Below are positions 58,329-59,879 of a stretch of 64,000 nucleotides of DNA, in pieces. The position numbers and the translations under genes were made by a program. The stretch is from Pseudomonas sp. BSw22131. Lineage in GTDB: Bacteria > Pseudomonadota > Gammaproteobacteria > Pseudomonadales > Pseudomonadaceae. The DNA is taken from NCBI RefSeq assembly GCF_026810445.1, contig NZ_CP113949.1, positions 2,728,001-2,792,000 on the forward strand. The letters are read 5' to 3'. The notes under the pieces were generated by a model. That model had not been told where the DNA came from and did not search any database. It saw nothing but the letters and a program-made list of their open reading frames with translations. Each line of letters opens with the position of its first letter. Position 1 is the stretch's first letter.

Positions 58329-58402
58329 GTAGCCCCCCGAGGCTACTCGCTTGGATGTAGCCTTTGGAGGTTACATTTTAAAATGTAGCCTCTTTAGGCT
58401 AC
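58329..58402. repeat. Three phased 18-bp palindromes upstream of the satD-like operon
   Basis: GTAGCC-CCCCGA-GGCTAC (58329), GTAGCC-TTTGGA-GGTTAC (58357, one mismatch) and GTAGCC-TCTTTA-GGCTAC (58385) recur at exactly 28 bp, each an 18-bp palindrome plus a 10-bp spacer; the second spacer ATTTTAAAAT is itself palindromic. The third copy is followed by a T-run and ends 18 bp before a -10-like TATAGT (58421), so it would overlap the -35 region. Two more copies, again 28 bp apart, follow the operon. These are probable operator sites for the downstream HTH protein; transcription termination for the kinase gene is the alternative. Confidence 0.85.
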
Positions 58403-58459
58403 TTTTTTTCGCACATGGCCTATAGTGATGAAACCGCTCCGATGATTCAGGATGTGTCC

Positions 58460-59077
58460 ATGACCATTAAAGCAGTGCTGACCGGCGATTTGATTCATTC
58501 ACGCTCGGTCGGCGACACCCAGGCCTACCTCGCAGCCTTGAAACAGGTCCTCGCGGATCTCCAGCACATCTACGGCTTCACCGCCGATATCTATCGCGGT
58601 GACGGGTTTCAGGTGGTGCTTGATGAAGCCACTCACGCGCTCAAGTGCGCACTGGCTATACGCGCAGGTCTGATTTCAGCAAGCCCCGATAAAGAGCGCT
58701 GGGATGCGCGCGTGGCCGTTGGCATTGGCAGCGCGGAATCTGACTTTACGTACGGCGAGGCGTTCATCCTCTCAGGTCAAGGCCTGGACAGCATGAAAAA
58801 AGCCACGCTGGCGGTGTTTAGCAACGACGAAAGGTTTAACGAACGCACCGAACTCACCACAGACTTTGTCGCTGCCATCGTCGAGAAGTGGACCGTGGTG
58901 GAGGCGCGAACCTATTGCATGCATCTGGTCGATGATGACAGTCAGGAAACAATCGCCCAGGTCTTGGGCAAATCCCGAATTACGGTCAACAAGACCTTGA
59001 GACGGGCTCAAGCACGATTGCTGGATCGTTACCTCCAGCGCGTAGGTCAATGGATTAAGGAGCTTGCCGATGCGTGA
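58460..59077 (+). CDS. SatD-like regulator: cyclase-like domain plus C-terminal helix-turn-helix
   Basis: A 205-residue protein resembling the SatD family. The N-terminal half shows, in order, VLTGDLIHSR (residues 6-15, metal-loop-like Asp), DIYRGDGFQVVL (43-54, a GDG hairpin), then RVAVGIGSAE (84-93) and GEAFILSGQGLDSMKKA, the same order and spacing as motifs of class III nucleotidyl cyclases (Fx.Di, GDg..a, R.Gi..G, G.avn.a.rl). Residues 161-190 are a helix-turn-helix (SQETIAQVLGKSRITVNKTL). AGGA lies 7 bases before the ATG at 58460. It overlaps the DUF3307 gene by 8 bases. Inferred: a nucleotide-binding DNA-binding protein acting at the GTAGCC palindromes. Confidence 0.7.
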   Translation: MTIKAVLTGDLIHSRSVGDTQAYLAALKQVLADLQHIYGFTADIYRGDGFQVVLDEATHALKCALAIRAGLISASPDKERWDARVAVGIGSAESDFTYGEAFILSGQGLDSMKKATLAVFSNDERFNERTELTTDFVAAIVEKWTVVEARTYCMHLVDDDSQETIAQVLGKSRITVNKTLRRAQARLLDRYLQRVGQWIKELADA

Positions 59078-59801
59078 CGTTCAGGTGTTGCTGCTGGTGC
59101 TGATCCTCGCGCATATGGGCCTGGATTATCTGTCGTCTGCCTGGCGCGCAAAAGCACGCTCTCCCCGTGGACGTTGGCTGGACCTGACGACGGTCGTCGC
59201 TTACGTGTGCGTGTTCGGCGCCATCTTGGTGTTGTTCGGGCACGGCGCGCTTTTCGGCGTGTTGGCGGGGGTGGCAGTCGGTGTCTGCTGGGTGCTGGCG
59301 CGCTGGCTGATCGGCCAACTCAGCTGGAAGTTCGCCTTCGTGCTGCGTTACGCGGTGAATATTGCGGTGGTCTGCGTCGTCTGGATGATTGCCGAGGGCA
59401 ATTGGCTCTCGGTCGGGGCGTCGGCCAAAGCATTGATCAATCCACACAATCTGGTAGTGGTGTTGGGTTACGTGATCGTGCTGCGGCCGTCATCATTATT
59501 GATCGGCGCAATCCTTAATCCGTGGCTGGCGTCGGTTGACACGCAGGGGACGTTGAAGAGCGCTGGCGCACTGATCGGCTATCTCGAAAGGGCGTTGATT
59601 CTGACGTTCGTTTTGCTGGCACAGTGGCAGGCCATCGGCTTTCTCCTCACTGCGAAAAGCATTCTGCGATTCAACGACATCAAGGGGGTCGAGCAACGCG
59701 CCCTGAGCGAGTACGTGCTGCTGGGCACGCTGCTCAGTTTCAGCACCAGCATCGCAATTGGCTTGGCAGTGACGAAATTGTTGAGTGTGTTAGCCGGCTA
59801 A
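59070..59801 (+). CDS. DUF3307-domain membrane protein, partner of the SatD-like regulator
   Basis: A 243-residue integral membrane protein with about seven helices; the first (LLLVLILAHMGLDYLSSAW) carries the His/Asp pattern of DUF3307 (aHll.Df). Others are near 38-55, 60-77, 95-115, 128-150, 175-195 and 215-240. No transport or enzyme signature is visible beyond this. AAGGAG precedes the ATG at 59070, inside the end of the satD-like gene, so the two are translated together. SatD/DUF3307 pairs occur in unrelated bacteria, which supports a joint function; that function is unknown. Confidence 0.75.
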   Translation: MRDVQVLLLVLILAHMGLDYLSSAWRAKARSPRGRWLDLTTVVAYVCVFGAILVLFGHGALFGVLAGVAVGVCWVLARWLIGQLSWKFAFVLRYAVNIAVVCVVWMIAEGNWLSVGASAKALINPHNLVVVLGYVIVLRPSSLLIGAILNPWLASVDTQGTLKSAGALIGYLERALILTFVLLAQWQAIGFLLTAKSILRFNDIKGVEQRALSEYVLLGTLLSFSTSIAIGLAVTKLLSVLAG

Positions 59802-59833
59802 GCAGCGTCGGTTAATCTTGATGCGGTCCCAAA

Positions 59834-59879
59834 GTAGCCCCTGAAGGCTACTTTCTGAGTAGTAGCCTGCCAAGGCTAC
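59834..59879. repeat. Two phased 18-bp palindromes downstream of the satD-like operon
   Basis: GTAGCC-CCTGAA-GGCTAC (59834) and GTAGCC-TGCCAA-GGCTAC (59862) repeat at 28 bp, exactly as upstream; arms extend to 9 bp (AAAGTAGCC/GGCTACTTT and GTAGTAGCC/GGCTACTAC). They lie between the converging DUF3307 and cysteine desulfurase genes, so they may hold a terminator role, but identity in unit and spacing to the upstream array favours a shared protein-binding site. Confidence 0.85.

Follow-up and report, generated by a model that had tools for sequence, protein, structure and literature searches.

Phased palindrome arrays beside a SatD-like/DUF3307 gene pair of Pseudomonas sp. BSw22131 and its relatives, and in phages

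Closest described systems and the window locus

Autoregulated operons with phased, cooperative operators carry several evenly spaced palindromes at their promoter, and in REPIN/RAYT systems paired palindromes flank a gene and also occur alone. Both patterns have a parallel in the arrays of the locus described here, a two-gene satD-DUF3307 operon of Pseudomonas sp. BSw22131 that lies between two palindrome arrays in a stretch of 64,000 nucleotides (contig NZ_CP113949.1, positions 2,728,001 to 2,792,000; hereafter the window). In contrast to the former, the arms of the satD arrays diversify at a fixed phase, arrays stand on both sides of the operon and copies are present in phages; in contrast to the latter, the copies are very few and the 28-bp phase is fixed. 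No RAYT transposase lies between the window arrays, although the flanks were not searched for one. Compared with SatD (PF16264)/DUF3307 (PF11750) pairs, the locus has the same gene order, the same invariant GD...S and RGD.[FW]Q motifs in SatD and, as in its relatives, a membrane partner of DUF3307 type; it differs in that both window proteins fall under the Pfam cut-offs.

The predicted palm fold of SatD is also that of class III nucleotidyl cyclases and GGDEF domains, and its two invariant aspartates lie in what we take to be motifs comparable to theirs, but in SatD the palm is fused to a helix-turn-helix (HTH) domain. The nearest published idea is Panoptes (mCpol plus membrane effector; PMC12657218), which by its description likewise places a small palm-domain nucleotide enzyme beside a membrane protein; the words SatD, DUF3307, HTH and transcription are absent from its main text. 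DUF3307 occurs in a jumbo-phage gene list (PMC8504454), "SatD family" occurs in an annotation study (PMC10326533) and PMC4886424 concerns DUF2652. The literature searched yielded neither a paper on SatD together with DUF3307 nor a described operator array for this family. The features of the locus are as follows (window coordinates):

58329..58346, no strand: upstream palindrome 1, GTAGCC-N6-GGCTAC, exact
58357..58374, no strand: upstream palindrome 2, GTAGCCTTTGGAGGTTAC, one mismatch, right arm GGTTAC
58385..58402, no strand: upstream palindrome 3, exact; followed by a T-run and so terminator-like too
58421..58426, + strand: TATAGT, candidate -10 element, putatively with the right arm of palindrome 3 at about the -35 place
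58460..59077, + strand: satD-like gene, 205 aa; palm domain ~1-123, C-terminal HTH ~146-190
59070..59801, + strand: gene of a putative DUF3307-family membrane protein, overlapping satD by 8 bases
59834..59851, no strand: downstream palindrome 4, exact
59862..59879, no strand: downstream palindrome 5, exact

The first-pass annotation of this stretch had reported five GTAGCC-N6-GGCTAC palindromes with a period of exactly 28 bp. All five starts and the period are correct, while the copy at 58357 has one mismatch, leaving four exact copies. These five are the only matches at ≤2 mismatches in the window. Five matches by number alone are not rare (shuffle mean 1.68; at least five in 4/100 shuffles, which scored the number of matches and neither exactness nor phase); the set is rare because of its exactness and phase. 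Exact copies of the palindrome in the 5.74-Mb genome number seven: four in the window, a pair at 4307487/4307515 that is also 28 bp apart, and a single copy at 5336824 (L009:3025) that has no phased partner and is probably due to chance. At ≤2 mismatches the palindrome is found 243 times genome-wide, fewer than its reversed control (365); information is therefore carried only by copies that are near-exact and phased.

Fixed phase and changing arms in satD operons

Phased palindromes were present on both sides of the operon in all 10 distinct Pseudomonas and Halopseudomonas operons (L011 and L012 come from the same genomes as G251 and G152, respectively, and were not counted again). Arm type agrees between the two sides in these operons, imperfectly in L013 and L014. 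At the same period, the arms are TTAGCC in Vibrio lentus and Salinivibrio, GTAACC in Pseudoalteromonas, AATCAA in Segatella, and AATCAC and ATATCT in two further genomes of the class (Gammaproteobacteria); TCAACC/TGTCAA arms at 29 bp are found on an Enterobacter plasmid and a viral contig. An upstream array only was seen in six relatives (L033, L034, L037, L039, L041 and L042). Bracketing of the operon, noted in the window, is the pattern in Pseudomonas and Halopseudomonas and is not a general rule. Across lineages the spacing is retained and the arms differ. That the arrays belong with the satD pair is supported by their position next to satD in other lineages with the 28/29-bp phase retained.

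We scanned 250 bp upstream of satD in 25 regions for periods of 20-45 bp; arms of any sequence were admitted if they contained three or more different letters, and each region was compared with 60 shuffles. This set omits two regions from the genomes of L011 and L012 (L016, L021), two fragments (L022, L023) and near copies of L031 and L036 (L032, L035). The single best period was 28 bp in 16/25 regions and 29 bp in 3/25, with one tie (L048), and 19/25 regions exceeded all 60 of their shuffles. A constant spacing, combined with arms that vary and yet match across the operon, is most readily explained if the arms are recognised by a protein which the operon itself encodes and which contacts its neighbour on the DNA; SatD is the proposed reader because the pair offers no candidate other than its HTH. 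In the viral contig L047 (3302-3893) the array is present twice, in each case ahead of a start of satD, which suggests a tandem duplication of the array and the satD 5' end.

The window SatD-like protein does not reach the gathering cut-off of PF16264 (12.2 bits against 29, E 0.14), and the best score of its relatives is also modest (at most 24.5 bits); its probable placement in the SatD family rests on homology to those relatives. Residues D10, S14, R46-G47-D48, Q51, D82, R84 and G106 are kept in two alignments. The AlphaFold2 model is confident, with matches over the first ~120 residues to class III cyclases, GGDEF domains and Cas10 palms; SatD models as a palm of class III cyclase/GGDEF type joined to an HTH, with the invariant D10 and D48 assumed to bind metal in the manner of cyclases. 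The HTH is sigma-r4-like, every match lying below its family cut-off. For the partner, no match to PF11750 or to any other Pfam family was obtained at E≤1, and its likely membership in the DUF3307 family rests on homology to relatives that pass that cut-off (L031, L033 and L037): it matches relatives at 32-59% in tblastn and also aligns with DUF3307 proteins. It is predicted to be helical (predicted template modelling score 0.66), and its model has no match in the PDB at E≤0.001. PADLOC 2.0.0 returned only weak HTH-region matches for SatD and none for the partner.

The pair is rare. Among the Pseudomonas genomes, drawn in overlapping sets of 298, 278 and 398, satD-like matches were found in 10/298, eight of them full length (the window included); the other two are a stop-broken remnant (G085) and a weak partial match (G156) that was not recovered by profile. 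A profile search at 1e-6 identified satD in 9/398 genomes. No second satD was found in the window genome. Across the class, satD-like matches were found in 7/369 genomes (the window included). There are also satD matches in 15 plasmid records, nine of which were examined; the smallest carrier, an E. coli plasmid of 3.77 kb, has the pair for its main cargo, and a plasmid of Segatella copri extends the pair from Gammaproteobacteria to Bacteroidota. When the small-plasmid pair was searched in E. coli genomes, there were short matches only, none covering >80% of the query. The Enterobacter plasmid (L039) has AAA-ATPase and helicase genes ~2 kb ahead of satD-DUF3307, separated from it by an IS3 transposase; this may be a defence neighbourhood.

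Arrays away from satD

The first-pass annotation had expected arrays beside satD and nowhere else in the genome. This does not hold: a phased pair is present in a prophage of the window genome, solo arrays occur in genomes where satD was not found, and phages carry arrays as well. An exact phased TAGCC pair was found in 10/298 Pseudomonas genomes, six with satD and four without (G112, G124, G173 and G239); no divergent satD was detected in these four by single sequence (E≤1e-3) or by profile (1e-6). At ≤3 mismatches there were 21/298 genomes, the 11 beyond the exact 10 requiring 2-3 mismatches, at which level the reversed control was found in ~40 of 298 (counted by eye). All four solo arrays sit between the same LysR-like and DUF72-like genes (the flank names LysR, DUF72, GGDEF, NifS and Lrp were assigned by eye, without a family search). 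The order is LysR-array-satD-DUF3307-array-DUF72 in G010 and LysR-array-DUF72 in G112, where the right flank aligns with that of G010 from the array onward and the short left flank aligns with the G010 left flank; the right flanks of G124, G173 and G239 align less well. Three array-free genomes that were read closely (L088, L093 and L100) have a GGDEF gene after LysR. The simplest account of the solo arrays is that the operon was gained and later lost between arrays. The loops of the solo arrays (L053, L058, L063 and L072) are complementary, and 46 bp of each could form one long hairpin.

Exact phased pairs with TAGCC arms were found in seven viral contigs (six of one family, plus L025) and pairs with TAACC arms in 62; the phage family thus has the same two arm types as the bacterial arrays. 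Chance was considered as the origin of these pairs and rejected, as a control phase of 26 bp gave 0 contigs and the only two contigs matched by control arms TACGC were low-complexity repeats. A ribosome-site-plus-start pattern follows directly after the array in 53/62 TAACC contigs, and among the 63 array loci flanked in this way the distance from array to start codon is 12 nt in 52 and 13 nt in 6. A methyltransferase-like or phosphoadenosine phosphosulfate (PAPS)-reductase-like gene precedes the array in 49/63 clustered cases (judged by eye on cluster representatives). The prophage array at 4307487 of the window genome is of this phage kind, its PHROGs neighbours being DNA methyltransferase, PAPS reductase, cysteine dioxygenase and, farther away, integrase. 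The phage spacer, TTTTCGAGAT, is identical to the spacer of the downstream array of G297. Among 63 viral contigs with another conserved boundary of the phage family, the array is present in 47, exact in 44 of these and with one mismatch in 3. A pair is missing from the available upstream stretch in 13 (of which L203 and L220 retain one palindrome, and L201 and L216 have the gene junction without any), and 3 have too little sequence. The array is therefore optional for the phage. Phage loci L024, L026-L028, L030 and L050 show short, highly conserved intergenic boundaries between exchanged cassettes, such as TTGCCTGCTGCGTATGCGGCGAGG and ACGTATAGCCCACCACCAACCTATT. In L025 (4371-4416), a viral or integrative contig, a TTAGCC phased pair stands beside HipA-like and HTH genes (identified by eye), with no satD in the available part of the contig.

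A full-length family profile detected no SatD in 72 phage loci (754 kb; best E 0.09); for the distant SatDs of L047/L048 the same profile gives E-values of 1e-54 or better. Fifty whole viral records were searched with a model of the Pseudomonas-type SatD HTH only, which gave matches in 6/50 at E≤1 (best 0.0024), three in frames of 71-80 aa and three over ~20 residues of 248-aa frames. As this model misses distant SatDs, including that of L047 among the 50 (bits 2-5), it makes only a Pseudomonas-type HTH unlikely in those records. A pattern-based scan of viral contigs located satD in two (L047 and L048). Among INPHARED phages, SatD was not found with two queries, and there was no array, with two weak partial matches only. 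Because no full-length SatD was found in the phage sequence searched, host SatD is the likeliest reader of the phage arrays.

Arrays outside both the satD locus and the LysR place were found in five Pseudomonas genomes, with GTAGCC arms in G000 and GTAACC arms in G085 (three copies), G235, G152 and G068; that of G152 has one mismatch and other surroundings. Intact satD of the same arm type is present in G000, G235 and G152; no satD of any kind was found in G068. In G085 a stop-broken satD remnant (L022, L080) lies at a NifS-Lrp place, and its upstream stretch keeps one GGTTAC half-site. On paper the association of arrays with satD is strong: 1.4e-6 for 4/5 genomes (G085 remnant counted) or 9.7e-5 for 3/5 (intact only), figures that ignore kinship (G085, G152 and G235 share the NifS-linked place). 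It weakens when the solo-array genomes are added (3.4e-5 for 4/9; 7.8e-4 for 3/9). A weak point is that five satD genomes of GTAGCC type (G010, G044, G225, G251 and G297) have no array elsewhere among the matches of the 298-genome search.

Proposed mechanism, rival explanations and meaning

We consider it probable that the locus is an accessory two-gene signalling cassette in which the SatD-like regulator, paired with its DUF3307-family membrane partner, reads its own cognate phased operator cooperatively and autoregulates. SatD dimers would bind the palindromes via the C-terminal HTH, and neighbouring dimers, 28 bp apart (29 bp in one subfamily), would touch, making binding cooperative and phase-dependent. 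The upstream array would lie at the promoter and provide autoregulation, most likely repression; the downstream array (in Pseudomonas, Halopseudomonas and Salinivibrio) may insulate the operon or allow bridging. The palm domain may bind or make a nucleotide, which would either set DNA binding or act on the membrane partner. The arrays, their conserved phase, the turnover of arms on both sides and the predicted fold are what we observe; binding by SatD, cooperativity, repression and ligand are what we infer. The promoter proposed earlier is supported in part: TATAGT is at 58421, with the right arm of palindrome 3 at about the putative -35 place, and TATAGT 16-18 bp after the last palindrome is seen in 3/10 loci (window, G152 and G235). 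For the remaining seven loci, 29-35 bp separate the end of the array from the start codon, and a promoter would thus lie in or beside the array. Such placements favour autorepression as the likely outcome.

Several observations weigh against this cassette model. A consensus promoter scan of the window locus found none, and the HTH matches of SatD are all sub-threshold, as noted above. Five of the 25 upstream regions (L038 and L043-L046) have no array despite a partner gene (partial in L046), and the tie in L048 is weak, being reached by 11/60 shuffles. Arms are exact in all four solo arrays and in phage arrays where no SatD was found; recent loss of satD is a possible source of the former. Residue 175, in the recognition helix, is T in 7/7 proteins of GTAGCC operons and A in 2/2 of GTAACC operons, a link to arm type that is suggestive only: T175A is one of 16 columns separating the arm groups, and the two GTAACC proteins may come from a single clade and so count as one event.

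The arrays might instead be the ends of a small mobile element, array-operon-array being moved or lost as a unit with solo arrays as its footprints. Arrays on both sides of the operon, the matching flanks of G010 (array-operon-array) and G112 (one array), and the presence of the operon at several chromosomal places and on plasmids all agree with this. Neither gene is a recombinase, however, several distant relatives have the upstream array only, recombination between arrays accounts for the solo arrays equally well, and the LysR-GGDEF-DUF72 genomes (three read closely) have no array at that place; we regard such an element as unlikely. The exact arms in four genomes where satD was not found would also fit a host protein other than SatD as the reader. 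This is very improbable, as arm type varies inside one genus yet matches across the two sides of each operon, and arrays adjoin satD in Bacteroidota and Gammaproteobacteria alike.

Lastly, the palindromes could work at the RNA level, as hairpins that serve as terminators, attenuators or stability elements, rather than as protein sites. Palindrome 3 is terminator-like, phage arrays lie 12 nt ahead of a start codon, and in the four solo arrays, as well as in the upstream arrays of L011, G225, G010 and G297, the two loops can pair at 5-6 of 6 positions, so that the 46 bp could fold as one long hairpin. In the window, L012 and G235 loop complementarity falls to 2-3 of 6, and at least five T among the eight bases after the last upstream palindrome are found in only 4/10 loci. 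Moreover, within a clade the arm sequence itself is fixed, beyond what pairing needs, separate hairpins give the 28/29-bp phase no role, and no family reached its Rfam cut-off. An RNA role is very improbable.

Beyond the cassette model itself, a tentative and at present doubtful extension is that SatD-DUF3307 is a phage-facing accessory system, and that a Pseudomonas phage family captured its operator: arrays whose arm type matches would border a methyltransferase-type cassette, titrating host SatD or placing phage genes under its control. With the arrays, a little-characterised gene pair of chromosomes and plasmids gains a concrete DNA target and a testable code in which spacing is fixed and arms can change. 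As phages carry apparent operators of a host accessory regulator, a conflict over the binding site of that regulator becomes directly testable. If the phage-facing reading is true, the turnover of arms in hosts and the two arm types in phages would reflect the opposing parties of an arms race in which a DNA code is at stake.
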